A stretch of DNA of 64,000 nt. Origin: Methanoculleus chikugoensis (lineage in GTDB: Archaea; Halobacteriota; Methanomicrobia; Methanomicrobiales; Methanoculleaceae). The notes below the pieces were generated by a model. That model worked only from the letters and a program-made list of their open reading frames with translations. It did no database searches and was not told the DNA's origin. The DNA is taken from assembly GCF_900095385.1 (NCBI RefSeq), contig NZ_FMID01000049.1, forward strand, positions 1 through 64,000, in the 5' to 3' direction. Shown here one piece after another: positions 9,148-37,558 of this stretch. Both the position numbers and the translations under genes were made by a program. Position 1 is the stretch's first letter, and each line of letters opens with the position of its first letter.

Positions 9148-9945
9148 ATGACAATGAACGGGTATAACCATTACAGAATCGGCTCCTACCTCCTCATCGG
9201 CTTTGCACCTCTGCTTATCCTTGCAGCCGTACTCACCGATCCGCAGGAATACATGCAAAGCCCGTTCCTCATGCTGAGCGCGACCTGTTTCATCGGAGGA
9301 GGCTTTCTCTTCGCTCTCAGCGGAGATAAACCCATAGATGCACGGCTTGCCGGCCGACTCTCCGTGCAGGGCATCCCCACCCTCGGCCACATCATCCGTG
9401 ACATGGGCGGCTCCGGGCCCGCGGTTTTTCTTCCACCGGAGAGCGAAGGTGGGAGCGTCACGCAATTCACTTCGACCCGGTCCGATTACAGATCCTTTGC
9501 GGCTGAAGGCGGCGGATTCACGTACCATAACGGGAGCACGGGCATCCTGACCCCTCCCCTGGCAGCTCCCCTCCTGGATGACCTAAAGAATGACAGCGAT
9601 CTCGCCCTCCCAAAGGATTACAGTCTGCTCATGGGAGCGATCCGCGAGGTGTGCGAGGAAACTCTTTCGGTTACCGAGTGGATGGACATCCGGAGAGAAG
9701 GTGATCGGGTAATCTTCACGCTGCACAACTATCTGCTCTTTTCAGGCTGCGCTTCGCTTCACGCGGAGTCCCCTGAGTTCTGCATGCTCTGTCCATGCTC
9801 GATCTGCAGCCTGATCGCATGCATGATCGCTGAGGGCCTCGGGTGCGAAGTCAGCCTGAACCGGACTGCTCTGGACGATGCCGACCGCTCACTCCGAGTA
9901 GAGTTGTCCTGCGCCTTCGCGGAAAAAACCCCGCTACCGGCCTGA
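9148..9945 (+). CDS. Membrane-anchored conserved hypothetical protein
   Basis: 265 residues. Two N-terminal membrane helices (about residues 11-28 and 40-57) precede a soluble domain of ~200 residues with GGSGPAVFLPPES, a GFTYHNGSTGILTPPL segment, and a C-terminal part with ALPKDYSLLMGAIREVCEE and a Cys cluster CMLCPCSICSL. The paired cysteines may bind metal or form disulfides. I recall similar two-helix archaeal proteins of unknown function but cannot name the family with confidence. Genomic position suggests a link with surface-polymer synthesis. Starts at ATG 9148 or at the ATG two codons later. Confidence 0.65.
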   Translation: MTMNGYNHYRIGSYLLIGFAPLLILAAVLTDPQEYMQSPFLMLSATCFIGGGFLFALSGDKPIDARLAGRLSVQGIPTLGHIIRDMGGSGPAVFLPPESEGGSVTQFTSTRSDYRSFAAEGGGFTYHNGSTGILTPPLAAPLLDDLKNDSDLALPKDYSLLMGAIREVCEETLSVTEWMDIRREGDRVIFTLHNYLLFSGCASLHAESPEFCMLCPCSICSLIACMIAEGLGCEVSLNRTALDDADRSLRVELSCAFAEKTPLPA

Positions 9946-10400
9946 TGGATATTCGAGGAGAGAAGAGTCGTTGCGGCATCAGTCCCCTGCTTCATCACCG
10001 GTCAGTGGGGGTAACTCTCATCATCTGCCGCCCGGCGATCCAGTACATACTCGGTGCACAAGCAGTTAATGGTTCGGCATCCCGAGTTCCACCGTTACCG
10101 GTGCGGCACCATGCCCCAACGGGATTCGGGAGCCCCGGAAAAGCCGTATGCGTCGGGATACGCATGCTGGAGGTCATAATCAGGGCAAAATATATATCCT
10201 TGGATCGCCTGTCAGGGACTCAACGTATCGGGGAGGGAAGGCAGTATTCACGATTACCCGTGCATGATACTATCTCTCGCAGATGCCGGCAGAGTTCCAC
10301 CGATCCGGCTCGAGGGGGTGGGGACCTTCAGATCGACGATGAAGACCGGTTGCAGGCCCGGATCTTCCGCCCCGGGCAAAGATTCCGCAGGAGGAGCGGT
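9946..10400. other. Leader region of capA with TATA box and a small coupled frame
   Basis: No full gene. A clear TATA-like AAAATATATATCC lies at 10187-10199. A 46-codon frame from ATG 10264 ends at TGA 10402-10404, overlapping the GTG start of capA (GTGTGA). The leader peptide, if made, resembles nothing I know, and its coupling to capA is only a possibility. Confidence 0.4.
10187..10199 (+). promoter_or_regulatory. TATA-like promoter element upstream of capA
   Basis: AAAATATATATCC in an otherwise GC-rich region fits an archaeal TATA box. Expected transcription start is about 25 nt downstream, giving a leader of roughly 180 nt before the capA start at 10401. Confidence 0.5.
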
Positions 10401-11483
10401 GTGACATCGGTGCGGCTGCGAGCGGTCGGAGACGTGCTGCTCTGGATGAGGAACGGCAAGAGGCCATTTGCCCTGGTCCAGCACGAACTCCGGCGGAAAG
10501 ATCTGCTCTTCGGGAACCTGGAGACGGTGCTCTCCGAGAGCGGAACCGAGAGGAAGAAACGCTGGGTCAATACAACCCCCCCGGAGGCGGGCGAGTACCT
10601 CAGAGAAGCCGGGTTCGACATCCTCAGCGTGGCGAACAACCACACGCTCGATATGGGCCGGGAGGGGTTTGAGAAGACCCTCGAAGGGCTTGAGGTCCGC
10701 GGTATCGCCTACGTCGGAGGGGGAAGAGGCGATGAAAGACTCCCGGGGCTGATCGTCGAGCGGAGCGGGATCCGGTTCGGTTTCCTCGCATACACGACCG
10801 GAAGGTTCCGGTCGCCGCCGGGTGTCACCGTCGCCAAACTGAAGAAGAAGAACGTCATCGAAGATATCAGGGCGCTGAAGGAACGCACCGACCACGTTGT
10901 CGTCTCCCTGCACTGGGGGATTGAGAACACCTACTACCCCTCGCCCGACCAGGTCAGGCTCGCTCACGCCTTCATCGACAGCGGGGCGACCCTGATCCTC
11001 GGGCACCATTCGCATACCATCCAGGGGCTGGAACGGTACAAAGACGGGCTGATCGCGTATTCGCTCGGGAACTTCCAGTTCGACACCGAGATCTTCAAGG
11101 AGGGGATCAACAGCACCATGATCCTCTCGGTGGAGTTCGACCGGCACGGCATCCGGGATTACACGACCATTCCCTGCGTCATCAACAGCGACTTCCAGCC
11201 CGGGGTGGCGGAGGGACGGACCAGGGAACTGGTGGAACGCTGGATCGCGAAGTGCTCCGAGAGGGTGCGCAACGGGGGCGTCACCCGCCAGTGGTGGTTC
11301 GAGCAGATCGGCGAGGACTACCTGGAGTACAACCTGGAGAGTTACCGTTACCGGATCCGGCAGCACGGTCTTGCGCCCCTGCTCGAGTGCGGGGTCTGGC
11401 TCTTCACGCCGTTCTGTCTGAACTGCTACGCGGGCCTGATCCGGAAACGGTTCCGGGAACGCAGCACGGGGGGACGGGCATGA
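10401..11483 (+). CDS. capA: CapA-family (PgsA-like) metallophosphatase domain protein
   Basis: 360 residues from GTG 10401, chosen because AGGAGG at 10389-10394 lies 6 nt upstream; the longer open frame has no homologous-looking N-terminus. Motifs of the CapA metallophosphatase domain: VGDVLLW, LLFGNLETVL, SVANNHTLDMG, VSLHWGIE and LILGHHSHTIQGLE, ending with SLGNFQFD. The family is needed for poly-gamma-glutamate or capsule formation and anchoring in bacteria, with the exact reaction debated. Its stop overlaps the ATG of the next glycosyltransferase (ATGA), so the two are translationally coupled. Here it probably serves synthesis or attachment of an extracellular polymer. Confidence 0.85.
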   Translation: MTSVRLRAVGDVLLWMRNGKRPFALVQHELRRKDLLFGNLETVLSESGTERKKRWVNTTPPEAGEYLREAGFDILSVANNHTLDMGREGFEKTLEGLEVRGIAYVGGGRGDERLPGLIVERSGIRFGFLAYTTGRFRSPPGVTVAKLKKKNVIEDIRALKERTDHVVVSLHWGIENTYYPSPDQVRLAHAFIDSGATLILGHHSHTIQGLERYKDGLIAYSLGNFQFDTEIFKEGINSTMILSVEFDRHGIRDYTTIPCVINSDFQPGVAEGRTRELVERWIAKCSERVRNGGVTRQWWFEQIGEDYLEYNLESYRYRIRQHGLAPLLECGVWLFTPFCLNCYAGLIRKRFRERSTGGRA

Positions 11484-12715
11484 AGGTTCTGCAGGTGACC
11501 CCGTTCTTCAAACCGCTCTGGGAGTCGGGCGGGGTGGCACGGGTCGCATACGATATCTCACGGGCCCTGCACGAGAACGGGCACGAGATCACCGTCTACA
11601 CGACGAACCGGAGCATCTATCCGAACGATCTGCCGACGAATCGCGTCACCTCCGTCGACGGGATGAACGTCTATTACTTTGAGAATTTACGAAAATACGC
11701 CCTGGGTGTGACCCCGCCGGTGATGCCCTACCGCATGCCGGCGGTCGCGAGGCAGGAGATTCCCGGGTTCGACCTTGTCCACATCCACGACCACCGCACC
11801 ATGCTCACCATCATCGCCTCGCACTACGCGAGGAAGTACGGGATACCCTACGTGCTCCAGGCACACGGGGCGCTCCCGCAGGATACGGGGTCAAAACGGA
11901 TGAAGCGGCTCTTCGACCGGTTCTGGTCGGATACGGTGATCCTCGGCGCCGCGGGAGTTATCGCGCTCAACGAGACGGAGGCCGAGCGGTACCGCGAGCT
12001 GGGTGTTGCCGACGAGAAGATGGCGATCGTCCCGAACGGCATCGACCTCGCCGAGTACCCTTCCCTCCCTGCCCGCGGCAGGTTTCGTGCGGCATGGGGG
12101 ATCGACGACGCTGCGAAGGTCGTGCTCTACCTGGGAAGGCTCGACCCGACGAAGGGGATCGATCTCTTGATCCGTTCGTTTGCCGTGGTCGCGCGGGAGG
12201 AGGGCGACGCCATCCTGGTGCTGGTGGGTGGAGACATGGGCCACAACGACGAGTTCAGGCACCGGGTCGGCTCGCTCGGTCTCGACGATCGGGTGGTCTT
12301 CACGGGGTTCGTGAGCAAGGAGGAGAAGATGGCGGCGTACACCGACGCGGACGTCTTCGTGACGCCGAGCTTCACCGGTTTTCCGGTCACGTTCCTCGAA
12401 GCGTGCCTCTGCGGGACACCCATCGTGACGACGGGCAAGGGGGATCTGCTCGGGTGGATCGACAACACCGTCGGGTTCAATACCCGGTATACACCGGAGG
12501 CCCTCGCCGGCGCCATCGGACGCCTGCTTACCGACGAAGCGTTGCGGGCAAGGTTCGGGGAACAGGCGAAAGAACTCGTCCGGACCAGGTACAACTGGGA
12601 GACGATCGTCCGCGACATCGAGACGTTTTACGCGAAGGTTGCCGGGAGCGCGGAAGGAGGTGTGCCGGCGGGGGTCTCGAAAGGGACAACACCAAAGGCC
12701 CCGGATACGTTGTAG
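11480..12715 (+). CDS. Glycosyltransferase family 4 (GT-B fold)
   Basis: 411 residues from ATG 11480, overlapping the capA stop by 4 nt. The N-terminal domain starts MKVLQVTPFFKPLWESGGVA (acceptor-side Rossmann strand). The C-terminal donor domain has VVLYLGRLDPTKGIDLLI, then FTGFVSKEEKMAAY, and a nucleotide-sugar binding block with TGFPVTFLEACLCGTPIV, where the Glu is the usual donor-ribose contact. It adds a sugar to a lipid-linked oligosaccharide or surface polymer on the cytoplasmic side. The donor sugar cannot be read from the sequence. Confidence 0.9.
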   Translation: MKVLQVTPFFKPLWESGGVARVAYDISRALHENGHEITVYTTNRSIYPNDLPTNRVTSVDGMNVYYFENLRKYALGVTPPVMPYRMPAVARQEIPGFDLVHIHDHRTMLTIIASHYARKYGIPYVLQAHGALPQDTGSKRMKRLFDRFWSDTVILGAAGVIALNETEAERYRELGVADEKMAIVPNGIDLAEYPSLPARGRFRAAWGIDDAAKVVLYLGRLDPTKGIDLLIRSFAVVAREEGDAILVLVGGDMGHNDEFRHRVGSLGLDDRVVFTGFVSKEEKMAAYTDADVFVTPSFTGFPVTFLEACLCGTPIVTTGKGDLLGWIDNTVGFNTRYTPEALAGAIGRLLTDEALRARFGEQAKELVRTRYNWETIVRDIETFYAKVAGSAEGGVPAGVSKGTTPKAPDTL

Positions 12716-13270: not shown

Positions 13271-14728
13271 TTACGCGCCGGCAGACGCAACCGTCATACC
13301 GTCCGTCCGGACGTTCTGGCCACCCTCGACCAGGAACGCCTTCTCGGAGGCGGAGGTTACCTCTCCCGTGTACTGGACGTTCTGGTTGTTCTTCGCCCAG
13401 ACGAGCGTATCGACCCGGTCACCGGAGGCGTGGATGTCAACTTCGGCATTGCTGAACTGGCCGTTCGTGCCGCCGAGGCTTGCACCCTTGCCGTCGATCC
13501 CTGCCGGGTTCACGAGCTCGAAGTTCTCGATCCGGATGTTGCTCGCGAGGTCGACCTGAAGGCCGTAGCCGTGCGAGTCGATGCTCGTGCAGTTCTCAAG
13601 CACCAGGGCGGGGTCGGTCGAACGGCTCGGGATGCTGTAGTAGCCGGCCGGCTTACGGTGGGTGTAGTCGGTCTTCCCGGCGCCGGTGTCCTTGTCGACA
13701 CAGTCGTAGAGTTTGCCGCCGTTCGTCGCGTAGAACCCATACAGCGAGTTGCCTTCCGCGACGCAGTTCTTGAACGTCACGTCGGCGTTCGGGGCGTAGT
13801 AGCCGCACCCGAAGTAGTGGGTCGACATGTCGCTCTGCTTGTAGGGCACCGTCGGGTAGGGCTTCTGCCCGTTGTTGTTGCTCACGCAGTTCTCGAGGAC
13901 GGCGTTCGTCACCTTCGGGTCGAACTCGAAGTGGAACCCGGACTCCAGGTTACCCTCAGCAAGGCAGTTCGTCACGCGAAGACCGTCCATGTCGTTCAAC
14001 TCCGCGAAGTCGAACCCGGTGATCCAGGGGTTGAACGCGCCTTTGCTCCCGCAGTTGATCGCCTGACAGTTATCGTAGCGGACGTCCTTGATCACCTTGT
14101 TGGACGACCCCCAGGCATTGTGGAGGAACCCGTAGGTGCCGGTGTCCACGGCCTTGCAGTTGATGAACTCGACGTCTTCAAGGGTCGGGGCATAGACCGC
14201 CGGATCGTGGATCAGGAGATAGACCGCCTGGATGCTCGTGTCCGCGGTTCCCGTGATGTTGTGAACTTTCGCGTGGCTTGCCCGGATGGTCATCACGCCA
14301 AGCCATTTGACGCCGCTGCTGTAGCCGCTGCCCTCGATGTGGAACCCGTCGAGGGTCACGTACTCCTTGTCGACGCTGATACGTCCGTCGCTGGTGAAGA
14401 CGAGGTTCGTTGCATCCGGACCCTGTCCGGAGAGCGTCGTGCCTGCCGGCGGCGCGATGACGCCGGCGCAGTTGAACGTACCGTCCGAGAGGACGACGTT
14501 ACCGCCGTCGGGCAGCGCGGCGAGCGCCGCCTGGATCTCGGCCTGGTCGTCGACTCCGTCACAGACATAGTCTGCCTGGTTCTTCGACAGCTCGGTGCTA
14601 TCGCTTGCAGCCACGGTGAGCGTGGCCGGACTTGCGGACTCGGCTGCACTTACCGGAGAGAGTGCCGCAACAAAGCAGCACACGAGAAGTGCTGCAGCCA
14701 GTCTCAGTATATTCTGCCTGTCTGTCAT
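13271..14728 (-). CDS. Secreted right-handed parallel beta-helix protein, paralogue 1
   Basis: 485 residues: a signal peptide (about residues 1-28, cleavage near SPVSAAES), then a pectate-lyase-like beta-helix. It opens with the family signature YVCDGVDDQAEIQAALAALP, follows with LSDGTFNCAG, and continues with many short turns containing conserved Asn and Cys. Diagnostic blocks shared with the three paralogues at 20-27 kb are GTYGFLHNAWGS, a GAFNPWITGFDFAELNDM block, and NLESGFHFEFDP. The fold usually binds or cleaves carbohydrate; no catalytic residues can be assigned. No membrane anchor or sorting tail is seen, so it is probably released or held non-covalently. It lies divergent from the glycosyltransferase at 15274. 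Confidence 0.85.
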   Translation of the reverse strand: MTDRQNILRLAAALLVCCFVAALSPVSAAESASPATLTVAASDSTELSKNQADYVCDGVDDQAEIQAALAALPDGGNVVLSDGTFNCAGVIAPPAGTTLSGQGPDATNLVFTSDGRISVDKEYVTLDGFHIEGSGYSSGVKWLGVMTIRASHAKVHNITGTADTSIQAVYLLIHDPAVYAPTLEDVEFINCKAVDTGTYGFLHNAWGSSNKVIKDVRYDNCQAINCGSKGAFNPWITGFDFAELNDMDGLRVTNCLAEGNLESGFHFEFDPKVTNAVLENCVSNNNGQKPYPTVPYKQSDMSTHYFGCGYYAPNADVTFKNCVAEGNSLYGFYATNGGKLYDCVDKDTGAGKTDYTHRKPAGYYSIPSRSTDPALVLENCTSIDSHGYGLQVDLASNIRIENFELVNPAGIDGKGASLGGTNGQFSNAEVDIHASGDRVDTLVWAKNNQNVQYTGEVTSASEKAFLVEGGQNVRTDGMTVASAGA

Positions 14729-15273
14729 GCCATTCAGCCTCTCTGTGAGGTATCACTACCGTCTTGCAATCGCCATATATATATTTTATTGTAAAAATAA
14801 AATTAACCTGAGGGATTAAACGGCAATATGGGCCGCACCGATGCGATCTGTTGTGGTGACATGGCATCATAACAGAGATCGTTTCCTGCAAAAAGATATT
14901 ATATAACTAGTTTGATTAAAACCGAAGATTACAAATACTCGCGCTTCCCGCCACCGTTCGCCGGGAGTGACCCTTCCCCGAAACGGTTTCAGCCGGAACG
15001 GATGGGAGTTCGGTCTCGTGCGCCGGCACGGCACGGCCTCCCCGGCCATCGCTACGAGGCGACGGCGTGAAACGGCAAGGATTCCATACCGCTTGCGCGT
15101 ATCGGGAATCGCGGGTGCCCGATAGAGCAGGAATACCATATGGATACGCCGGGAGGGAAACGGCCGGCCGGGTGGATGCCGCCGGCTCTCCGCAGACCCC
15201 ACCAGGGTTCATCCGTCAAACGACGCTTCAGGGCACAATCTCTATATACAGCATCCTCATAGAGAGGGCCCCT
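14729..15273. other. Divergent promoter region, no gene
   Basis: The gap between the beta-helix gene (minus) and the glycosyltransferase (plus) contains an AT-rich block at 14775-14820 (probable promoter of the beta-helix gene). It also has an imperfect inverted repeat GATCTGTT / AACAGAGATC at 14840-14880 and a TATA-like TCTATATACA at 15241-15250. No protein-like frame is visible. Confidence 0.45.
15241..15250 (+). promoter_or_regulatory. TATA-like element of the glycosyltransferase gene
   Basis: TCTATATACA ends 24 nt before ATG 15274, the normal distance for a leaderless or short-leader archaeal transcript. This supports 15274 rather than the longer open frame as the start. Confidence 0.55.
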
Positions 15274-16449
15274 ATGCGCGTGGCGTGCCTGACCTTCTGG
15301 TTCTACGACTACACCATCCAGATGGCAAACGAACTTGCCCGGCACACCGAAGTGCTGCTGCTGCTCCCCGACTACAGGTCGGAAGAGTATGTGGAGAGCA
15401 TCGACCCGGCCGTGAAGGTTCACATCTTCGGCTACTCGCGATACGCCGGGAGGTTCGGGCCGTCGTGCTACCCGATGCTCAAAGATATCGTCGCCGCAAT
15501 CGACGACTTCGCACCCGACGTCGTCCACTTCCAGGTGAACAACCCCATGCTCTGTCCGCTCCTCCCGATGCTCCGGAAGTACCCGCTGGTGGCGACGTTT
15601 CACGACATCGAACCGCACCCCGGTGAAGACCGTCTCCTTGACGCAGGTTCACTGCTCTACCGGCTCACCCTCTTCGTATCGCGGGCCATGCCCGACCGGA
15701 TCTTCGTTCACGGGGAGGCACTCCGGGAGACCCTGGTGAAGAACTACCGCGTCCGCGGAGAGAACGTGCACGTCATCCCCATCGGCGAGCACGAAGTGGC
15801 GCCGTTCGTGAAGTTCGAGCGGGACGACCTGGAGCCCGACGGCCGGCGGGTTCTCTTCTTCGGACGCATTCACCGCTACAAAGGGCTCGACTGCCTGATC
15901 CGGGCGGAGCCGCTCATCACCCACGAGATCCCGGACGCCCGGATCGTCATCGCCGGAACGGGCGAGGACTTCGGCAGGTACCGGGAGGCGATGGCGGACC
16001 GGGACGCGTTCGAGGTCCACAACTACCGGATACCCTACGAAGAGGGCGCCCGGCTCTTCCAGCAGGCGAGCGTCGTGGCGCTCCCGTACCTCGAAGCGTC
16101 CCAGAGCGGCGTCATACCGACCGCGTACGGGTTCCGGCGACCGGTGGTGGTGACCGACGTGGGGAGCCTGCCCGAGGTCGTCGACGACGGGGTGACCGGC
16201 TACGTCGTGCCGCCGCGGGATCCGGAAGCGCTGGCAGCCGCGATCGTCCGCCTGCTGAAGGACCCCGGGGCGTGCCGCCGCATGGGGGAGCGGGGTTACG
16301 CGAAACTGAAGACGGACATGGCCTGGTCGACGATAGCACGGTCTCTCCTCGCTGTCTACAGTGAGCTGGCAGCCGCCCGGGGGAGGGGAAACGTTCCCGC
16401 GGACGAGGCGTTCGCCGATACCCCCCCTGCCGCCGGGAACGAGCGTTGA
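15274..16449 (+). CDS. Glycosyltransferase (GT-B fold, GT4-like)
   Basis: 391 residues from ATG 15274 (MRVACLTFWFYDYTIQMANE), selected because of the TATA box 24 nt upstream. Donor-domain motifs: RRVLFFGRIHRYKGLDCLI, then DARIVIAGTGEDFGRY, ALPYLEASQSGVIPTAYGFR, and VVTDVGSLPEVVDDGVTGYV. The N-terminal half contains VVHFQVNNPM and VATFHDIEPHPGE. It adds a sugar during surface-glycan synthesis; substrate unknown. The last ~25 residues are a low-complexity hydrophilic tail. Confidence 0.9.
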   Translation: MRVACLTFWFYDYTIQMANELARHTEVLLLLPDYRSEEYVESIDPAVKVHIFGYSRYAGRFGPSCYPMLKDIVAAIDDFAPDVVHFQVNNPMLCPLLPMLRKYPLVATFHDIEPHPGEDRLLDAGSLLYRLTLFVSRAMPDRIFVHGEALRETLVKNYRVRGENVHVIPIGEHEVAPFVKFERDDLEPDGRRVLFFGRIHRYKGLDCLIRAEPLITHEIPDARIVIAGTGEDFGRYREAMADRDAFEVHNYRIPYEEGARLFQQASVVALPYLEASQSGVIPTAYGFRRPVVVTDVGSLPEVVDDGVTGYVVPPRDPEALAAAIVRLLKDPGACRRMGERGYAKLKTDMAWSTIARSLLAVYSELAAARGRGNVPADEAFADTPPAAGNER

Positions 16450-16607: not shown

Positions 16608-18818
16608 ATGCACCTTCGAAACCCGCTCCGAATGAATGACTGGGATAACAGAACGTTCTTCTGGACATTCCAGGCGATCCAGTTCGTCTTCCTCGGGGTG
16701 GTCAGTCTCGATCTCGTCGGGTATTACATACCGATTGCAAGGGAGGGCCTGGCGTTCCTGTATCTCACCTTCCTCCCCGGAGTCCTCGTGCTGAAGGCGC
16801 TCAGGCTCCACGATCTCGGCACGATCGAGACGGTACTCTACTCCGCCGGGCTGAGCCTTGTACTCGTCATGCTCACCGGCCTTACCGCCAACGTCGTATA
16901 CCCGGTACTCGGGTACACGCGGCCGTTCTCGTTTCCGATCCTCCTCCTCACACTCGTCGCCGTCATGCAGGTTCTGCTCTATCTCGCGCTCACCAGGGAT
17001 AAGGGGCGTACCGGTGAGAGCCCCGGGCTCGCCGTCCCCTCCTCTCCTGCGGTACCGTTCCTGATACTCCTCCCGTTCCTCGCGATCATCGGGACATACC
17101 TGCGCGACAACTACCACATGGTCACGCTCCTCTTCCTGCTCCTCGTCCTGATCGCCGTCATCGGTCTCGCCGTCGGGTTCGACCGTTTCATCCCGAAGTC
17201 CTGCTATCCGCTCGGGATCTACGCCATCGCGTTGTCGCTCCTCTACCATACCTCGCTGATATCGGAGTACGTCTGGGGTTACGACATCCACCACGAACTT
17301 CACCTCGCAAACGGCGTGCTGATGCCGGGGCTCTGGGACATGGCCATCCCGTATAACACGAACGGGATGCTCTCCGTCGTCGCGCTCGTCCCCATCTACT
17401 CGCTCATATGCGATCTTGATCCCGTCTGGATCTTCAAGATCGTCTACCCCCTTCTCTTCGCGCTCGTGCCGCTCGGGCTCTACCGGGCGGTCGAGAAACA
17501 GACGGACGCAAGGATAGGGTTTCTCTCGATCTTCTTCTTCTTCTCGTTCTTCACGTTCTACACGGAGATGATCTCCCTCGCCCGCCAGCAGATCGCGGAA
17601 CTCTTCCTCGCGCTGACCGTGCTCGTGATGATCGACAAGACCATGGACCGGGGGAAGCGGGCATTCCTCATGATCGCATTCGCGTTCGCCATGATCGTCT
17701 CGCACTACGGGCTCTCGTACATCTACCTCTTCTCGCTCGTTCCGGCATGGCTGCTGCTTGCCGTTCCCGAGCGCCTGCAGTCCCGGCTGCCGGAGAGGCT
17801 CGCCAGGGGCGTCGCCCTCCTGAGGCACGATCCCCTCGCTCCGCCGGGAACCGGCGGGAGGACGATACCGGTGAGGACGCTCATCCTCCCCTACATCATC
17901 ATCTTCGCCGCCCTGGTCTACCTCTGGTACTCAACGGTCGCCGAAGGCACGGCGCTCGCTACCGTCACCGGCATCGGGGACAAGATATGGAACACCCTCT
18001 TTATGGACTCATTCAACCCGACAACCGCCCAGGGGATGCATATTCTCACCAGCCAGTCGACGACGCCCCTCCACGGCCTCGCGAAACTCGTCCATGTCGC
18101 CACCCAGGGCCTCATCGCCGTCGGGCTGCTTGCAACCCTCGCAAGACGCGAGCGGTGGCGCATCGAGCCCGAGTATCTCGCCGTCTCGCTCGTTTTCCTG
18201 CTCATCAACGTAGCCGGCATCGTCGTCCCGTTCTTCGCAAGCTCGCTCAACACCAGCAGGCTCTACCACATCACCCTGATCTTCCTTGCCCCGTTCGCGA
18301 TCATCGGCGGCATAGCGCTGTACGAGAGGTTGACCGGGTGGATACGCGCAGTCAGGGCCGCCCCGTTCATGGGGACGGCGTACCAGGCCCTCTCCGTATT
18401 CCTCGTCATCTTCTTCCTCTTCAACAGCGGGCTCCTCTACCAGGTCATGGACGACAACCCGACGTCGATGGCGCTCGACACCGCCGGCGACAAACCGGTC
18501 TTCAACGGCAGGGAGGTGCAGGGAGCGGTATGGCTCTTCTCGGAGGGGAACGAGCGCCCGGTCTACGTCGACGGCACACGCTGGTGGCTTCTCTTAGGGT
18601 TCAACCCCGGCAGCCAGCGGTACGTTCCGGCAAATGCGTCGCTGCTGGAGCCCAACTCCTACCTCTACTTCGGTACGTACAACCTCGTGCGGGAGAGCAT
18701 CCGGATCGAGACGCAGGAGCACGCGGTCACCACGGCAACGTATACGGGTGCGGACCGGTTCATCCGGAGCCACCACCGGATCTACGATAACGCCGGTTCC
18801 GCCGTCTACTACCGGTGA
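16608..18818 (+). CDS. Large multi-spanning membrane protein (DUF2206-like)
   Basis: 736 residues with about 14-16 membrane helices and a soluble C-terminal end of ~130 residues. It starts at ATG 16608 after AAGGG. Features include a helix-rich N-terminus with LAFLYLTFLPGVLVLKALRL, a SEYVWGYDIHHELHLAN loop with charged and aromatic residues facing outside (typical of GT-C-like enzymes), SLARQQIAELFLALTVL and a SHYGLSYIYLFSL motif. I recognise it as resembling archaeal DUF2206 membrane proteins found in surface-glycan loci. A role as a GT-C type transferase or polymerase is inference. It converges on the flippase gene at 18851. Confidence 0.75.
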   Translation: MHLRNPLRMNDWDNRTFFWTFQAIQFVFLGVVSLDLVGYYIPIAREGLAFLYLTFLPGVLVLKALRLHDLGTIETVLYSAGLSLVLVMLTGLTANVVYPVLGYTRPFSFPILLLTLVAVMQVLLYLALTRDKGRTGESPGLAVPSSPAVPFLILLPFLAIIGTYLRDNYHMVTLLFLLLVLIAVIGLAVGFDRFIPKSCYPLGIYAIALSLLYHTSLISEYVWGYDIHHELHLANGVLMPGLWDMAIPYNTNGMLSVVALVPIYSLICDLDPVWIFKIVYPLLFALVPLGLYRAVEKQTDARIGFLSIFFFFSFFTFYTEMISLARQQIAELFLALTVLVMIDKTMDRGKRAFLMIAFAFAMIVSHYGLSYIYLFSLVPAWLLLAVPERLQSRLPERLARGVALLRHDPLAPPGTGGRTIPVRTLILPYIIIFAALVYLWYSTVAEGTALATVTGIGDKIWNTLFMDSFNPTTAQGMHILTSQSTTPLHGLAKLVHVATQGLIAVGLLATLARRERWRIEPEYLAVSLVFLLINVAGIVVPFFASSLNTSRLYHITLIFLAPFAIIGGIALYERLTGWIRAVRAAPFMGTAYQALSVFLVIFFLFNSGLLYQVMDDNPTSMALDTAGDKPVFNGREVQGAVWLFSEGNERPVYVDGTRWWLLLGFNPGSQRYVPANASLLEPNSYLYFGTYNLVRESIRIETQEHAVTTATYTGADRFIRSHHRIYDNAGSAVYYR

Positions 18819-18850: not shown

Positions 18851-20092
18851 TTATAGCCACCCTTTCTTCTTCAGGATCAGGCCGACGAGGAGCGTTCCGG
18901 CGACGTACGTGGCGAGCCACGCGTATCCCATGCCGATGAGGCCGAACCGGTTCATCATGGCGTAGCCGAGCCCGAGCAGGGCGACGCTGATAAAACCGCT
19001 GAGGACGACGAGGCTCCGGATATCGTTTCTGACCTTTGCGATGGATATGAACGTCTGGCAGATGGAGACGAAGAGGGCGGATGCGGCAAGCACGCGGAGC
19101 AGGGCCATCCCTTCGACGTAGTCCTTGCCGATCAGGTTGAGAATCTGCTCCCCGAAGAGGGAGAGGCCGATGATCGCGGGTACGAGCAGGAGGAACATGC
19201 TCGCGAGCGTCCGGAGAACGCTCCTCTTCATCTCCCCCCCGTGGCTCCCCTCGACGAAGAGCGAGGTCGTGAACGCGTAGGGGATCATGAAGAGGATCGA
19301 GACGATCGCGTAGGTGATGTAGTAGTTGGCGGTGCTCTCGGCCCCGAGCACGTTGAGCACCATGATCGGGATGAGCATGTTCGGGGCGGACATCAATATC
19401 CCGGCGACATACGCACCGGCGGAGAACTGCCATGCCTCCCGCAGGAAGACCCGGTCGACGCACGGCGTCGGCCGGACGGAACACCGAGCAAGGAGGACGA
19501 GAGCCAGGACGAGACCAAGGATGAACGAGAGGCCGAAGGCGCCGAAGATGCCCACCGCGCCGAGGAAGACCAGGGGGACGAGGAAGAGGATCCGCGTCCC
19601 GTAGAGCAGGTTCAGCGCGAAGTAGTGTTCGGACTTCCGCAGGGCGTTGAACGCACCCTCAAAGACCCAGGTGATGGAGTAAGCCCCGAGGATGACGAGG
19701 TAGAGCGGCGCGATCGTTCTGACGATGGCGAGCTCGGGAGCCAGGACGTCGACCGTTGCGATGAAGAAGAGGCCCGCACCGAGCGCAACCGCCGTAGGGA
19801 CGAGGACGGCGGTTCCGATCACCCTGTTCTTGTCGCGGGTCGGAAAGAACCGGATCACCGACTGGTCGAGACCGAGGCGGGAGATGAGGATGAGGAGGCC
19901 CATCGACGACATCAGGGCGGTTGCAATACCCACGTCCGCCTGCGAGTAGAACCGGGCGGCGATCATCCAGAAGAAGAACCCGAACCCCGCTGCAACGAAC
20001 GACGAGGCCATGATAAAGAACGAATTCCGGATAAGCGGCTGCTGTAGGTGCTGCCTGACCTCACTGAAATTCTTCGGGAGCGCTACTGCCAT
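18851..20092 (-). CDS. Oligosaccharide flippase (RfbX/Wzx-like)
   Basis: 413 residues, about 12-14 hydrophobic helices. N-terminal QPLIRNSFFIMASSFVAAGF followed by FFFWMIAARFYSQADVGIAT is the classic start of polysaccharide-export flippases. It probably moves lipid-linked glycan outward. The open frame extends to a GTG at 20116, but a TATA box (CTATATAG) lies only ~5 nt before that GTG. The transcript should therefore start near 20095, and ATG 20092 is the better, leaderless start. It faces away from the beta-helix gene at 20342-22903 by 250 bp. Confidence 0.88.
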   Translation of the reverse strand: MAVALPKNFSEVRQHLQQPLIRNSFFIMASSFVAAGFGFFFWMIAARFYSQADVGIATALMSSMGLLILISRLGLDQSVIRFFPTRDKNRVIGTAVLVPTAVALGAGLFFIATVDVLAPELAIVRTIAPLYLVILGAYSITWVFEGAFNALRKSEHYFALNLLYGTRILFLVPLVFLGAVGIFGAFGLSFILGLVLALVLLARCSVRPTPCVDRVFLREAWQFSAGAYVAGILMSAPNMLIPIMVLNVLGAESTANYYITYAIVSILFMIPYAFTTSLFVEGSHGGEMKRSVLRTLASMFLLLVPAIIGLSLFGEQILNLIGKDYVEGMALLRVLAASALFVSICQTFISIAKVRNDIRSLVVLSGFISVALLGLGYAMMNRFGLIGMGYAWLATYVAGTLLVGLILKKKGWL

Positions 20093-20118
20093 TCGGCCGC
20101 CCGTATCGGTCGGCACCT

Positions 20119-20341: not shown

Positions 20342-22903
20342 TTAGAGAGAAGAGGTCCTGCCGAAGAAGAAGTCGGCGAGCAGGGCAACATCCTTCCAGT
20401 CCACGGTGCCGTCTCCATTAACGTCGGCAGCCGGGTCGGACGGCGTTGTTTTCTGCGCCATCTCGGCAGCGATCGTCACGTCGACCCAATCGACGTTGCC
20501 GTCTCCGTTGAGGTCGCCCCTGACGGGGGCGGGGGTGCCGACGACGATCGCTTTGCTCATGACGTTGTTGGTCTCGTTCGACTCGGCAATCCGGTTGACG
20601 TCGTCGACGGTGGCCTTCACGGTGTGGGTGCCCTCGACGGCCTTCCAGGTTGCACCGCTTGAGCCGCCGTTCGCGGTCAGGGTAACCGACGCGCCGGGAG
20701 CGATCGCCGTGGCGTGGGTGTCGGACCAGACGCCGGGCCCTGCCGCGCCGTCATCGAACGTAAAGAGGACGCCGTGCTTGGTGCCCGCAGGCGTGGGGGC
20801 GGTGCCCTGGTTCTTGATCGTGGCCTTCAGCGTCACCGCATCCCCGGTAGCGGGGTTCGCCGGCGTCCAGGCGATGTCGGTCACCACAAGGTCCGGCTTC
20901 CCGGAGGGGGCCGGCGTGGTGGGGGTGGGGGTCGGGGTGGACCCCGACGCGGCCTTCGAGACCGCGATCTGCTCGGTGCGAACGTTGTTTGCATCGTTCG
21001 ACTCAGCAATCCGGTTGACGTCGTCGACGGTGGCCTTCACGGTGTGCGTACCCTCGACGGCCGTCCAGGTTGCACCGGCCGAACCGCCGTTCGCGGTCAG
21101 GGTGACCCAGGAGCCGGGGGCGATCGATGCCGCGTGGGCGTCGGACCAGACCCCGGGGCCGGCGGCACCGTCATCGAACGTAAAGAGGACGCCGTGCCGG
21201 GTGCCCGCAGGCGTGGGGGCGTCGCCCTGGTTCTTGATCGTTGCCTTCAGCGTCACCGCATCCCCGGAGGCGGGCTTCGCCGGCGTCCAGGCGATGTCGG
21301 TCACCACAAGGTCCGGCTTCCCGGAGGGAGCCGGGGTGGTGGGAACGGTCGGGGTCGGTGCCGGCGAGCCGGTGGACGTCACCTTCACGTTCTGGAGGGT
21401 CGCCTGACCTGCCGGAACCGTGCTTGCGACAGTCACACCGGGGGAACCGGCGGGGAGGGTCTTAGAGACGATCTCCATGTCCTTCACGAGGACGTTCTGG
21501 GTCCTGTAGCCCTCGATCACGAACGGTTTTGCCGCATCGGAGACGATCTGACCGGAGAAGACGGTGTTAACGTTCTCCTTCGCCCAGACAAGCGTCTCCA
21601 CGCGGTTGCCGGACGCATAGATGCTCACCTCGGAGTTGTCGAACTGGCCGTTCGTGCCGCCGAGGCTGGAACCCTTGCCCTTGTACCCGATCGGGTCGAC
21701 CAGGTGGAAGTTCCGGATCTTCACGTTGTTCGCGAGGTCGACCTGGAGGCCGTAGCCGTTCGCGTTGATGCTCGTGCAGTTCTCCATCACCGTAGAGGGG
21801 TTGACCGAACGGCTCGGGATACTGTAGTAGCCGGCAGGCACCCGGTAGGAGAAGTCGGTTCTCCCGGCACCGGTGTCCTTCTCGACACAGTTGTAGAGCT
21901 TGCCGCCGTTCGTCGTGTAGAACCCGTTCATGGAGTTGCCTTCCGCGACGCAGTTGATGAACGTCACGTCACAGTTCGGGGCGTAGTAGCCGCACCCGAA
22001 GTAGTGAGTCGACATGTCGTTCTGCTGGTAGGCCCGCGCCGGGAAGGGTTTCTGCCCGTTGTTGTTGCTCGTGCAGTTCTCGAGGACGGCGTTCGTCACC
22101 TTCGGGTCGAACTCGAAGTGGAACCCGGACTCGAGAGTGCCCTCCGCATAGCAGTCCTTCACGCGAAGACCGTCCATGTCGTTGAGCTCCGCAAAGTTGA
22201 ACCCGGTCACCCAGGGGTTGAACGCTCCGAACTTGCCGCAGTTGATCGCCTGGCAGTTCTCGTAGCGAACGTTCTTGATCACCTTGTTCGTCGATCCCCA
22301 GGCATTGTGGAGGAACCCGTAGGTGCCGGTGTCCACGGCCTTGCAGTTGACGAACTCGACGTCCTCGAGGGTCGGGGCATATACGGTAGGATCGTGGATC
22401 AGGAGGTAGACCGCCTGGATGCTTGCATCAGCGGTTCCCGCGATGTTGTGGATCTTCGCGTGGCTTGCACGGATGTTCATCACACCGAGCCACTTGACAC
22501 CGCTGCTGTAGCCGGTTCCCTTGATGTGGAACCCGTCCAGCGTGATGTACTCGCGGTCGACGTTGATCCGCCCGTCGCGGGTGAAGACGAGGTTCGTCTC
22601 CGATTCACCTTCCCCCTTGAGGGTGGAGCCTGCTTTAGGAGAAATGATCCCTGCGCAGTTGTACGTACCACTGGAGAGGAGGACAACACCGCCGGATGAC
22701 GGCAGGGCATTCAGTGCTGCCTGGATCTCCACGTGATCGTTGACCCCATCACAGACGTAGGCAGCCGCCGCTTTATCGGCTGCACTGCTGTCGCTTGCCG
22801 CGACAATCGTGGTGGGAGTCGCTTCGAGTGCCCCGACAATCGGGATGAGCCCGACAATCAGGAACACTGCAATAAGAAGCTTCGTTGTCCGTCTATCTCG
22901 CAT
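20342..22903 (-). CDS. Secreted beta-helix protein with two CARDB domains and a dockerin, paralogue 2
   Basis: 853 residues from ATG 22903 (MRDRRTTKLLIAVFLIVGL, signal peptide). Order: beta-helix about residues 40-500, with YVCDGVNDHVEIQAALNALP, GFLHNAWGSTNKVIKNVRYE and GFNFAELNDMDGLRV. Next come a Pro/Thr linker, two CARDB adhesion domains (each beginning KPDLVVTDIAWTPA, ~105 residues) joined by another Pro/Thr linker, and a C-terminal type I dockerin. The dockerin has two calcium-binding repeats, DLNGDGNVDWVDV and DVNGDGTVDWKDV. Dockerins pair with cohesins to assemble extracellular complexes; no cohesin is visible in the window. The CARDB units are nearly identical at DNA level, suggesting recent duplication. 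Likely a matrix or carbohydrate-binding surface protein. Confidence 0.88.
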   Translation of the reverse strand: MRDRRTTKLLIAVFLIVGLIPIVGALEATPTTIVAASDSSAADKAAAAYVCDGVNDHVEIQAALNALPSSGGVVLLSSGTYNCAGIISPKAGSTLKGEGESETNLVFTRDGRINVDREYITLDGFHIKGTGYSSGVKWLGVMNIRASHAKIHNIAGTADASIQAVYLLIHDPTVYAPTLEDVEFVNCKAVDTGTYGFLHNAWGSTNKVIKNVRYENCQAINCGKFGAFNPWVTGFNFAELNDMDGLRVKDCYAEGTLESGFHFEFDPKVTNAVLENCTSNNNGQKPFPARAYQQNDMSTHYFGCGYYAPNCDVTFINCVAEGNSMNGFYTTNGGKLYNCVEKDTGAGRTDFSYRVPAGYYSIPSRSVNPSTVMENCTSINANGYGLQVDLANNVKIRNFHLVDPIGYKGKGSSLGGTNGQFDNSEVSIYASGNRVETLVWAKENVNTVFSGQIVSDAAKPFVIEGYRTQNVLVKDMEIVSKTLPAGSPGVTVASTVPAGQATLQNVKVTSTGSPAPTPTVPTTPAPSGKPDLVVTDIAWTPAKPASGDAVTLKATIKNQGDAPTPAGTRHGVLFTFDDGAAGPGVWSDAHAASIAPGSWVTLTANGGSAGATWTAVEGTHTVKATVDDVNRIAESNDANNVRTEQIAVSKAASGSTPTPTPTTPAPSGKPDLVVTDIAWTPANPATGDAVTLKATIKNQGTAPTPAGTKHGVLFTFDDGAAGPGVWSDTHATAIAPGASVTLTANGGSSGATWKAVEGTHTVKATVDDVNRIAESNETNNVMSKAIVVGTPAPVRGDLNGDGNVDWVDVTIAAEMAQKTTPSDPAADVNGDGTVDWKDVALLADFFFGRTSSL
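20560..21345 (-). repeat. Tandem 420-bp repeat encoding the two CARDB domains
   Basis: Blocks such as GATGTCGGTCACCACAAGGT recur at about 20874 and 21294, a shift of 420 bp. The surrounding sequence matches almost base for base over the full domain length plus part of the linker. Confidence 0.8.
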
Positions 22904-23303
22904 TATCTCACCTCTTGGGAGATACTCCATTATCTGACAGCCGTCTTTTAAAAGGTTTTTTAAATAAAATAGGCTGATTTAAAAGATTTGAATTTTAAAC
23001 AGACCCATCATTAGAGAGATAATCGATTATTTCCACCATTTTGGGAATTTATGCCCCGACGAAAAGTAATATATACAAATTCGAAATTTAGCGCATACGC
23101 CCCGCAGAATACGCACCTTGACCGGGGATCCCCGGAGGTATTCCTGACGGATGAACGGGGGCAGAATATCCATTATAATACTGTAACTAATATAAAACTC
23201 GCAGAATTGTGCGACACCCCGCGCCCGGCCGACCGCGGCGGCAACTACCCCCTGCCGCACCCCGGCCGGATACGGCACCGGTGATCCGGGAGACGGGCGG
23301 CGA
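22904..23303. other. AT-rich promoter region, no gene
   Basis: 400 bp with strikingly AT-rich stretches (22945-23060 and 23165-23205) between two minus-strand beta-helix genes. It contains probable promoter elements for the downstream gene (runs such as TTTTATTTAAAAAA on the minus strand) and some short poly-T tracts that could end the upstream transcript. No coding frame recognised. Confidence 0.45.
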
Positions 23304-24950
23304 TCAGAGCGAGCCCGAGACGACCGCCACGTTCTCAAACGTCACCGCACCGGCAGGAACCGTATTCGTGAGGATGACGCCGTTGGTGAACGGTGCGAGG
23401 TTCGCGGAGACGATCTCCATATCCCTGATCCGGACGTTCTGCGTGCGATCGCCCTCGATCACGAACGGTTTTGCCGATTGCGAGACGATCCTGCCCGAAT
23501 ACTCGACGTTCTCGTTGTTCCTTGCCCATATCAGCGTCTCCGCCCTGTCCCCCGATGCATAGATGTTGACCACGGAGTTAGACAGCGGCCCCCCCTGCGA
23601 TCCTCCGAGGTTCGTCGCCTTTCCATCGATCCCGGCCGGATTCTCCAGGGAGAAGTTCTTGATCAGGACATCGCTTGCGAGGTCGATATGAAGGCCGTAG
23701 CCGTACGAGTCGATGCTCGAACAGTTCTCAAGCACGAGAGACGGGGCTATCGATCGTGTCGGGGCGGCGTAGAACGATGCCGGCTGGACGAACCGGTAAT
23801 CGGTCTTCCCGGCTCCGACGTTCCGGTCGACACAGTTGTAGAGTTTGCCGCCGTTCGTCGCGTAGAATCCGTGCCGGCTGTTCCCCTCGGAGTAGCAGCT
23901 GATGAAGGTGACGTCACCGCGGGGTGCGTAGTAGCCGCACCCAAAGTAGTGCGTGGATCGGTCGTCCTCGCGGTAGGGCTTTGTCGGGTAGGCTTTCTGC
24001 CCGTTATTTCTGCTGATGCAGTTTGTGAGGATGCAGTCGCGCTTCTCGGGGTCCCACTCGAAGTGGAACCCGGACTCCAGGTTGCCTTCCGCGAGGCAGT
24101 TCGTCACCCGGAGGCCTTCGATGTCGTTTAACTCCGCGAAGTCGAACCCGGTCACCCAGGGGTTGAACGCACCGTACCTGCCGCAGTTGATCGCCTGACA
24201 GTTCTCGTAGCGGACGTTCTTGATCACCCTGTTCGTCGACCCCCAGGCGTTGTGGAGGAACCCGTAGGTCCCGGTGTCCACGGCCTTGCAGTTGACGAAC
24301 TCGACGTCCTCGAGGGTGGGGGCGTAGACGTCCGGGTCGTGCAGCAGGAGGAAGACCGCCTGGGTGCCGGCATCAGCAGTCCCCTCGACGGCGAGGACCT
24401 TCGCGTGGCTCGCGTAGATGGTGACCACGCCGAGCCAGAGATCGGGCTCGGTCTTCGGGTACCCGGTGCCCCTGACGTGGAAGTTGTAGAGCGTGACGGA
24501 TTCGCGGGAGACGAGGAGCCGCCCGTTGTCGGTGAACTCGATGAACGTCGCATCCACCCCTTCCCCGCAGAGCATGGTCTTCGCACCCGGGTAGATGTTC
24601 CCGGCGCAGTTGAACGTCCCTTCGAGGAGGGCGACCGTTCCGCCCGAGGATAGTGCATCGAACGCCGCCTGGATCTCCGCCTGGTCGTCGGTGCCGTCGC
24701 AGACGATATCGGCCCGGGCCTTCGCTGCAGCGCTGCTGTCGCCTGCCGCAACGACGATCGTCGGCCCGGCGACCTCCGGGGGCACCGCCGGAGTCGTGGG
24801 AATCGGGGTGACCGGTGGAGGGGGCGGGGGTACCGGCACCGGAGGGTAAAAGTGCACGATCAGCACGACGGCGACGATCACCGTGAGTATGATCGCGACG
24901 GCGATGAGGATGCGCCGTTCTCTCGTCCCCAGCTGCAGTCCTGCCGACAT
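23304..24950 (-). CDS. Membrane-anchored parallel beta-helix protein, paralogue 3
   Basis: 548 residues. An N-terminal membrane helix (about residues 13-34, ILIAVAIILTVIVAVVLIV) is followed by a proline-rich stalk (PPVPVPPPPPPVTPIPTTP) and the same beta-helix as its neighbours. The helix shows DIVCDGTDDQAEIQAAFDAL, GFLHNAWGSTNRVIKNVRYE, GFDFAELNDIEGLRVTNCLA and ESGFHFEWDPEKRDC. Unlike paralogues 1 and 2 it has no cleavable signal, so it is probably displayed on the cell surface through the helix. A carbohydrate-related function is inferred from the fold; catalytic residues are not identifiable. Confidence 0.85.
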   Translation of the reverse strand: MSAGLQLGTRERRILIAVAIILTVIVAVVLIVHFYPPVPVPPPPPPVTPIPTTPAVPPEVAGPTIVVAAGDSSAAAKARADIVCDGTDDQAEIQAAFDALSSGGTVALLEGTFNCAGNIYPGAKTMLCGEGVDATFIEFTDNGRLLVSRESVTLYNFHVRGTGYPKTEPDLWLGVVTIYASHAKVLAVEGTADAGTQAVFLLLHDPDVYAPTLEDVEFVNCKAVDTGTYGFLHNAWGSTNRVIKNVRYENCQAINCGRYGAFNPWVTGFDFAELNDIEGLRVTNCLAEGNLESGFHFEWDPEKRDCILTNCISRNNGQKAYPTKPYREDDRSTHYFGCGYYAPRGDVTFISCYSEGNSRHGFYATNGGKLYNCVDRNVGAGKTDYRFVQPASFYAAPTRSIAPSLVLENCSSIDSYGYGLHIDLASDVLIKNFSLENPAGIDGKATNLGGSQGGPLSNSVVNIYASGDRAETLIWARNNENVEYSGRIVSQSAKPFVIEGDRTQNVRIRDMEIVSANLAPFTNGVILTNTVPAGAVTFENVAVVSGSL

Positions 24951-25180
24951 GGAACTACCTGCCCGTTATTGCTGCTATCCGGGGATCGTGCGGAGCCGCG
25001 AGAGCCCGGCGACACCTCCCACCCCGGATCACCCACTATGGCACGGAAGTACCATTTAAGGGTTTAGCCGACTCCCTCCCGCCGGAGGGTTCCGCCGGGG
25101 ATTCCGGAAAGAAAACGGCCGGCTCTGGAGGTCGAGGGATTTACGCATGAAGCCTTCCGCACCACGGGCGCCCCGGGGAC

Positions 25181-26734
25181 CTATGCCGCACCGCCGGCCG
25201 GCAGCACCTTGAGATCCGTCAGGTCCGCACCCCCTTCCAGCGTCCACTCGACCGCCACAGGCCGGGGAGCATCGGAGACGATCGTCCCGGAGTATGCGAC
25301 GTTTCTGTTGTTGACGATGGAGACCAGCGTCTGCGGCCGGTCGCCCGACGCGGAGAGATCGATGACCGAGTCGGAGATGCCCGCATCGATCGTCGAATTC
25401 ACCGGGAGTTCGCCGGACGGGCACCCGAGCATCGCCCCTACACCGTTGATACCCGCCGGATCGGTCATGGTGAAGTTCCTGATGAGCGCGTTCTCCGTGC
25501 CGCAGACAAAGAGGCCCCAGCCGTAGGAGTCGAGGCTCCGGCAGTGATCCATCACGATGGACGGGCTCTTCGAGACGGGCAGGGACTGGAGGATGCAGTA
25601 AGATATGGGTTTTACGGAGCCGCCAGCGGTCGAGTTGCGGCCGGTCTCGCTCTCGGTGCAGTTGTAGAGGAGCACGCCTTCCGGGTTGATGACGAAGAAC
25701 CCGAACGCACCGTTCCCCTCTGCCCGGCAGTTCACCAGCGCCACTTCCCCTCCCGGGAGGTAGAAGCCGGCGCCGAAGAAGTCGGGGTCGCCCACCAGGT
25801 AGTCGTCGGGATAGGGTTTCCGGCCGTTGTTGCGGCTCACGCAGTCGGTGAAGACGCAGTCGCGTTTCTCCGGGTCCCACTCGAAGTGGAACCCGGACTC
25901 CAGGTTGCCCTCCGCAAGGCAGTCCGCCACCCGGAGGCCTTCGATATCGTTCAACTCCGCAAAGTTGAACCCGGTCACCCACTGGTTGAACGCACCGTCG
26001 CTCCCGCAGTTGATGGCGGAGCAGTTCTCGTACCGGACGTTTTTGATCGTCGTGTTTTTAGTTCCCCAGGCGTTGTGGAGGAACCCGTAGGTCCCGGTAT
26101 CCGCGGCCCGGCAGTCGACGAACTCGACGTCTTCGAGGATGGGGGCGTAGACGTTCGGGTTGTGCAGCAGGAGGAAGACCGCCTGGATGCTCGCGTCCGC
26201 CGTGCCCGTGACGTTGTACACCCGGGCATGGCTCGCGTAGACGGTGAGCACCCCGTGCCACCGGGTGAGGTCGAGGGTCGTATCCGTGCTCGCGTTCACG
26301 TAGCCCGAGCCCCGGACGTGAAACCCGTCCAGGGTGACCCGCTCCTCCGAGACGTTGAGGAGGCTGTTCCGGCTGAACTCGAGGGACGTATTCTCCGGCC
26401 CCTGCCCGAGAAGCGTCGCTCCGGCGGCGGGGATGAGGCTGCCCGAACAGTTGAACGTGCCGTCCGAGAGGACGACCGTGCCGCCCGGCGGCAGCGCATC
26501 GAGCGCCGCCTGGATCTCCACCTGGTCGTCGAGGCCGTCGCAGACGTAGTGCGCATCCGCTGCAGCGCTGCTGTCGCTCGCCGCCACAACGATCGGCGCC
26601 GCGGGTGCGGCGGCAACACCCTGGACGAGCAGAAGCCCGGCAACTATGCCGACCAGGAGAACGACCGGCAGGTCCGCGGCGGGTGGGCGTGGCCGGGATG
26701 GATCTGACGCTTTTTGACGCAGGCGGGTAGTCAT
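25181..26734 (-). CDS. Secreted parallel beta-helix protein, paralogue 4
   Basis: 517 residues from ATG 26734 (MTTRLRQKASD); the open frame reaches 26752. A signal peptide with a long n-region (hydrophobic core LPVVLLVGIVAGLLLVQGVA, about residues 22-43) leads into the beta-helix domain. That domain has HYVCDGLDDQVEIQAALDAL, GFLHNAWGTKNTTIKNVRYE, GFNFAELNDIEGLRV and NLESGFHFEWDPEKRDC. It is the most divergent of the four in its C-terminal third (PISYCILQSLPVSKSPSIV). No anchor or sorting signal at the C-terminus. Part of the beta-helix cluster, same strand as paralogues 2 and 3. Confidence 0.85.
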   Translation of the reverse strand: MTTRLRQKASDPSRPRPPAADLPVVLLVGIVAGLLLVQGVAAAPAAPIVVAASDSSAAADAHYVCDGLDDQVEIQAALDALPPGGTVVLSDGTFNCSGSLIPAAGATLLGQGPENTSLEFSRNSLLNVSEERVTLDGFHVRGSGYVNASTDTTLDLTRWHGVLTVYASHARVYNVTGTADASIQAVFLLLHNPNVYAPILEDVEFVDCRAADTGTYGFLHNAWGTKNTTIKNVRYENCSAINCGSDGAFNQWVTGFNFAELNDIEGLRVADCLAEGNLESGFHFEWDPEKRDCVFTDCVSRNNGRKPYPDDYLVGDPDFFGAGFYLPGGEVALVNCRAEGNGAFGFFVINPEGVLLYNCTESETGRNSTAGGSVKPISYCILQSLPVSKSPSIVMDHCRSLDSYGWGLFVCGTENALIRNFTMTDPAGINGVGAMLGCPSGELPVNSTIDAGISDSVIDLSASGDRPQTLVSIVNNRNVAYSGTIVSDAPRPVAVEWTLEGGADLTDLKVLPAGGAA

Positions 26735-37308: not shown

Positions 37309-37558
37309 GGTGTTTCTTGGGGATCCGGGACCGGGGAACCCGGCCCGGAGTGGCCGGTGCGTGGCCGGGATGGGCGGGAACCAAAACCCGCCTTCAATGT
37401 GCCTGATTCCCGCTAAAGAGAGGATCGTGACGCAATGCTTTTATCGATACCATCCTATCGAAAGATCATCCAACTATGTACAGGATAACCGTTCTCTTTT
37501 GCAACCCGGCAGAACATCGGTTCTATTCCGGAAACGGAGTCGGGGGGAGTGGGCCGGC

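Follow-up and report, generated by a model that had tools for sequence, protein, structure and literature searches.

What do several closely related, apparently exported beta-helix proteins do among genes for the making of a surface glycan? The question is raised by a locus of Methanoculleus chikugoensis in the window analysed here (the whole stretch of 64,000 nucleotides), whose minus strand carries four paralogues that we call BH1 to BH4 in coordinate order, BH standing for right-handed beta-helix. With moderate confidence, we favour the reading that the locus builds and exports a glycan and that the BH proteins act on this glycan outside the cell, as putative enzymes.

Four paralogues with a common core

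The original prediction had named four paralogues sharing diagnostic sequence blocks. All four open reading frames are indeed present on the minus strand, and their common core of about 450 residues aligns end to end, the other three being 72, 63 and 53% identical to BH1. The family size of four holds for the window but not for the genome, which has six members. The blocks were found with small variants between the pairs BH1/BH2 and BH3/BH4: GFLHNAWG occurs in all four proteins, a second block reads FAELNDMDGLRV in BH1 and BH2 and FAELNDIEGLRV in BH3 and BH4, and a third reads ESGFHFEFDP in the first pair and ESGFHFEWDP in the second.

The paralogues differ in what surrounds the core. BH1 (13271..14728, 485 aa) has a signal peptide followed by the core up to the end of the protein, and BH4 (25181..26734, 517 aa) has a signal-peptide-like start and the core; both are released forms that stop where the core stops, with both ends kept in orthologues. 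BH4 had been described as secreted with a divergent C-terminus, of which the secretion start stands; there is no separate C-terminal domain, the last helix rungs being merely less conserved. BH3 (23304..24950, 548 aa) is the tethered form, with the predicted N-terminal membrane helix (hydropathy 3.59 across 19 residues), a Pro-rich stalk (YPPVPVPPPPPP) and then the core; both features recur in the complete BH3 orthologues read from Methanoculleus. The member expected to carry CARDB and dockerin is BH2 (20342..22903, 853 aa), a released modular form consisting of signal peptide, core, Pro/Thr linker, two CARDB domains (2.6e-28) and one type-I dockerin (Dockerin_1, 8.2e-08), all above the Pfam cut-offs. 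On the same strand, the first CARDB repeat spans 20969..21316 (right end approximate; the first PDLVVTDIAW repeat lies at residue 530, and the CARDB family matched in two stretches) and the second 20555..20896 (Pfam CARDB, residues 669-783). The dockerin (20375..20518, minus strand; PF00404, 35.1 bits) has two intact 12-residue calcium loops (DLNGDGNVDWVD and DVNGDGTVDWKD) and can be aligned to the cellulosomal dockerin 2y3n_B.

The Pfam group of the core is the right-handed beta-helix (PF13229, PF12708); PF13229 scored 44.5 bits in BH1 and 35.6 in BH4, above the cut-off of 25.9, and slightly below it in BH2 and BH3. Modelled by AlphaFold2 with a mean pLDDT of 91.2, the BH1 core shows the recurring strands typical of a parallel beta-helix. 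Compared with the PDB by Foldseek, it matched GH87 glucanase, chondroitinase B and other PL6 lyases, mannuronan C5-epimerases, the Sf6 tailspike and RbmB. The nearest folds are thus nearly all polysaccharide-acting proteins, in keeping with the carbohydrate-type fold originally proposed; since the TM-scores are only 0.2-0.5, these matches fix the fold class and no enzyme family. By sequence profile, the best solved relatives were AlgE6 and AlgE4 (E 2e-10), chiefly through the N-terminal cap, the match consisting of the cap and a weak later stretch outside the active-site rungs of AlgE. As modelled, the core is a parallel beta-helix with an N-terminal cap, of the right-handed beta-helix/pectate-lyase-like superfamily. 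A NosD/copper reading was set aside, as it gave only weak matches far below the cut-off. A phage tailspike origin was likewise rejected, since the fold is common to both and yet the BH family is order-restricted in cellular genomes; a search of viral contigs found no relative, and one of plasmids found CARDB matches only.

Glycan genes beside the BH genes

Interleaved with the BH genes are genes of the kind needed to make and move a glycan. A polysaccharide flippase-like protein (18851..20116; PF01943) is encoded on the minus strand, as are BH2-BH4, and the plus strand carries a DUF2206 membrane protein (16608..18818; PF09971, 6.7e-82), which is a candidate outer-face glycan transferase or polymerase, two GT4 glycosyltransferases recognised by Pfam (15268..16449 and 11477..12715) and, as end member of the conserved cluster, a PGA_cap-family protein (9843..11483, start uncertain; PF09587, 4.5e-62). 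The flippase and the two GT4 genes, features of Wzx/Wzy-type loci, are syntenic in the genus. The AlphaFold model of DUF2206 reached a pLDDT of only 35.6, and its profile found no relative among solved structures. No upstream motif of at least 10 bases was found in three or more of the BH genes.

Mapping of the window proteins onto 31 loci of other genomes revealed a recurring order: mch, a cdc6-like gene, BH4, BH3, BH2, flippase, DUF2206, GT4, BH1, GT4 and PGA_cap. The four-BH set with its interleaved glycan genes is syntenic through Methanoculleus and core to the genus. A second locus of the host genome, on contig C26, contains two GT4 genes, DUF2206, a flippase, a long BH gene with a CARDB-CARDB-dockerin tail and a short tethered BH gene.

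Other glycan-related genes were seen in passing. Two FemAB/GNAT-like proteins (2056-3117 and 7409-8416, plus strand) and a second flippase (4743-6290, minus strand) occupy a stretch of the window whose G+C content is 0.49-0.56, rising to about 0.62 beyond it; this may be a glycan island acquired next to the conserved cluster. At 37310-39547 on the plus strand, an unusual single open reading frame fuses a methyltransferase domain to a D-Ala-D-Ala-ligase C-terminal domain. On host contig C8, a 770-aa protein (locus L087, 6361-8670) with CARDB, CBM6 and beta-helix regions lies amid glycosyltransferases, and its CARDB closely resembles the one in BH2.

The proposed link of the family to glycan genes is borne out by synteny, by locus controls and by co-occurrence across genomes. 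In a phylum-wide sample the BH family was present in 26 of 394 genomes, all but one weak match within the same methanogen order, and within that order in 60 of 199 genomes and 12 of 38 genera. Purpose-built models of GT4, GT2, flippase and DUF2206 detected at least one glycan gene no more than about 10 kb away in 22 of the 33 BH stretches (two of the 33 share one contig), compared with 1 of 20 control stretches placed at round coordinates in four genomes (Fisher p 8e-6, related genomes making the set non-independent). The association is tighter for loci with two or more BH genes, 19 of 20 being beside glycan genes (L135 and L131, with a second member weak or cut by a contig end, are excluded from this set); in the single exception, L117, a DUF2206 gene is about 27 kb off. 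Across the 199 genomes, 50 had both BH and DUF2206, 10 BH only, 5 DUF2206 only and 134 neither. Within Methanoculleus, 29 of 37 DUF2206 genes are no more than 12 kb from a BH gene and 3 more are near a BH dockerin tail. Both occur together in 21 of 24 good genomes of the genus, and the three that lack DUF2206 have no BH match (G002, G023) or a weak one (G024).

The unlinked BH stretches are mostly contig ends and divergent singletons of family f5, and only as such singletons was the family seen scattered away from glycan genes. These proteins (L125-L132, genomes G093 and G131) are distant from glycan genes with the polar site described below largely kept, and some have PKD, CBM6 or dockerin tails. 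Separately, the contig giving G129, a genome of another family of the order, its BH match (L135/L029) carries an mch gene 94% identical to that of the window, and is probably a wrongly binned Methanoculleus contig.

Tethered and released formats

In nearly every paired locus the format follows a rule: the short BH protein is tethered and the long one is released with a swappable tail. Formats were called in the 20 paired loci by hydropathy and inspection by eye. The long members have a signal-peptide-like start 0-11 residues before the core and no further membrane segment. The short members are anchored in different ways, by an N-terminal membrane helix with a stalk of 12-30 residues, by a C-terminal membrane helix (FWC-SCC1, G099, G044 and G039) or by an amphipathic-looking C-terminal segment (G049, G054, G064 and G027); the anchoring is less clear in G043 and G059. 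In the lineage of FWC-SCC1 and G099 there is an own four-member set of one tethered, two released and one modular protein, which forms a clade apart from the Methanoculleus four in the core tree; this single tree, with deep branches partly unsure, suggests that the same division of labour arose twice.

The tails of the long members vary by lineage, comprising CARDB-CARDB-dockerin, CARDB repeats, PEGA with CARDB, three to four CBM6/35, three to five PKD or three Golvesin_C modules. The CBM6/35 modules on the long partner in related lineages agree with the carbohydrate-related role originally assumed for the family.

Heads and tails appear to have separate histories. In a tree of 83 cores, members of the same locus tend to be mutual nearest relatives, a pattern that local duplications or gene conversion, happening again and again, would leave. 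When BH1-BH4 are compared with one another, the central part of the core shows more similarity than its ends do, at fourfold sites as well, which is suggestive only, each stretch offering few sites. The tail of BH2 (codons 515-853; 20345..21361, minus strand) is near-identical to that of the long BH gene on C26, with 96.2% amino acid, 96.6% nucleotide and 94.7% fourfold-codon identity, whereas the cores share only 50.8, 60.3 and 39.5%, respectively, with the break near codon 515. The CARDB-dockerin tail has therefore been copied between unlinked loci by recombination. By pairwise identity, the two-locus tails of G000, G003 and G004 are nearest each other within each genome and the cores match their orthologues; G033 and G006 have no such within-genome pairing of tails, and in G018 a tail of the CARDB-dockerin type is joined to a core only 39% identical to BH2. 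The copied tail may then serve a partner common to its loci, and the core the glycan of its own locus. As a separate observation, the long BH gene at the second locus (L156/L158) is 100% DNA-identical, core and tail, in G004 and G006, despite otherwise divergent species, which suggests either that this locus was transferred recently or that an assembly is mixed.

For the dockerin, no cohesin partner could be recognised. A PF00404 search of the host genome (99.7% complete) found two dockerins only, both on BH proteins, and neither PF00963 nor a profile made from cohesins of the genus itself found a cohesin in it, the latter search having no positive control of its own; a cohesin was consequently rejected as partner of the BH2 dockerin in this genome. 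The original prediction spoke of a hypothetical extracellular matrix or glycan-binding system with released, anchored and scaffolded members: the first two stand as conserved formats, and the scaffolded one is unsupported in the cellulosome sense, as no cohesin was found in the genome. Within Methanoculleus, dockerin occurs in 29 of 35 genomes and cohesin in 11 of 35 at E 0.01, with none in 24. Cohesin-bearing genomes generally carry additional dockerins in other proteins, and in some of them (L091-L098) separate large cohesin proteins with further dockerins make up a distinct system, not found in the host genome. A conserved dockerin lacking a recognisable cohesin means that a new partner exists or that the module has another use.

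The polar site and the proposed role of the BH proteins

The core carries a conserved polar site, placed in BH1 at 13862..14026 (minus strand) and comprising W224, E232, E247, E251, H255, E257, N275 and K278 in the numbering of a 474-aa BH1 construct (adding 11 gives full-length BH1, 224-278 becoming 235-289, with E243, E262 and E268). All 83 non-redundant cores have E232, E251, E257 and N275, 99% have W224 and 95% H255, and at position 278 nearly all carry Lys or Arg; several structural Gly, Phe and Cys residues are invariant too. The site persists down to about 30% identity. BH1-BH4 all retain these residues, and none of the four thus resembles a dead copy. Charged residues fixed on a few neighbouring rungs are what would be expected of a catalytic or calcium site, and such an invariant site favours an enzyme over a pure lectin.

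In the mechanism that we propose, the four BH genes would form one half of a surface-glycan locus, the GT4 enzymes, flippase and DUF2206 serving glycan synthesis and export. The BH proteins would exit by the Sec route and act on the same glycan extracellularly, the invariant Glu-Glu-Glu-His-Lys/Arg site being putatively that of a calcium-dependent lyase or epimerase, or of a hydrolase. BH3 would process the glycan at the membrane and BH1, BH2 and BH4 further out, BH2 being held outside by its CARDB-dockerin tail through a partner other than a recognisable cohesin. The core would follow the glycan of its own locus, and the tail would be a common handle for several loci.

A serious competitor, to which we give a little over a quarter of our belief, is that the BH proteins are non-catalytic matrix lectins whose cores bind the glycan of the cell itself, the tethered form being the cell's hold on it and the released modular form a cross-linker. 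The CBM6, PKD, CARDB and Golvesin_C tails, the pairing of tethered and released forms and the sharing of a tail by several loci all suit this role; a site for different glycans should vary, however, and three Glu, the Asn, the Trp and the basic residue change little or not at all among the 83 cores. Less probable still, in our estimate, is a two-format recognition of glycan, by which the tethered and released pair with the same core, kept alike within the locus by local duplication or gene conversion, would hold and cross-link only the glycan of that locus, and the homogenised CARDB-dockerin handle would be common to loci with different cores. If true, it would be an archaeal lineage-specific system of self-coat or kin matrix, in which a dockerin works without cohesin.

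We think it improbable that the BH proteins are structural proteins of an S-layer or sheath, substrates rather than agents of a cluster that supplies protein glycosylation. The flippase and glycosyltransferases might just as well produce a lipid-linked oligosaccharide for N-glycosylation, and the export signals would fit; the locus is nevertheless absent from three good genomes of the genus (two with no BH match, one with a weak one), and neither paralogue pairs with swapped tails nor an invariant polar site are like an S-layer protein. Slightly less credible yet are enzymes for foreign polysaccharides, used in foraging or in clearing neighbours' slime, whose genes would simply happen to sit by glycan genes: secreted depolymerases and phage tailspikes are among the nearest folds and released forms with CBMs exist, but Methanoculleus-type hosts are expected to be CO2-reducing methanogens without sugar catabolism, and the BH set belongs to the core of the genus and goes together with synthesis genes.

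The surface glycans and matrices of digester methanogens are poorly known, yet they may be needed for granules and syntrophic contact. The BH loci offer a testable gene set, core to Methanoculleus, with a candidate active site; two evolutionary patterns, a rule of tether and release arrived at with different anchors and a tail copied from locus to locus, hint at the parts that have to fit the glycan and those that have to fit a common partner. In the open-licence papers searched, a weak negative, no description of the BH family in Methanoculleus and no paper on DUF2206 was found.

Among known systems, the PL6 lyases (chondroitinase B) and GH87 alpha-1,3-glucanase share the fold class (E about 1e-6), with only 10-16% identity to the BH core and a TM-score of about 0.4. 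The archaeal dockerin and cohesin proteins of ANME and Archaeoglobus (PMC9012536) resemble BH2 in that a type-I dockerin ends an exported archaeal protein; the BH genome differs in having no recognisable cohesin and in bearing the dockerin tail on beta-helix cores, copied between loci. The mannuronan C5-epimerases AlgE4 and AlgE6, the best solved sequence relatives, are extracellular beta-helix enzymes acting on their own polymer, although the similarity is mainly in the cap and their R-modules are absent from the BH proteins. RbmB of Vibrio cholerae, among the Foldseek matches, is an own-matrix polysaccharide lyase with a beta-helix, tied to a Wzx/Wzy-type locus (PMC11637428), and is likewise an exported parallel beta-helix protein. 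The BH proteins are most likely enzymes on the glycan of their own locus, which would work in the manner of matrix lyases or epimerases such as RbmB and AlgE. Unlike RbmB, which is single and released, the BH proteins are archaeal, known from sequence, and occur as two to four per locus in tethered and released forms with modular tails; such sets beside coat genes point to a so-far undescribed way of remodelling or organising a cell's own coat.
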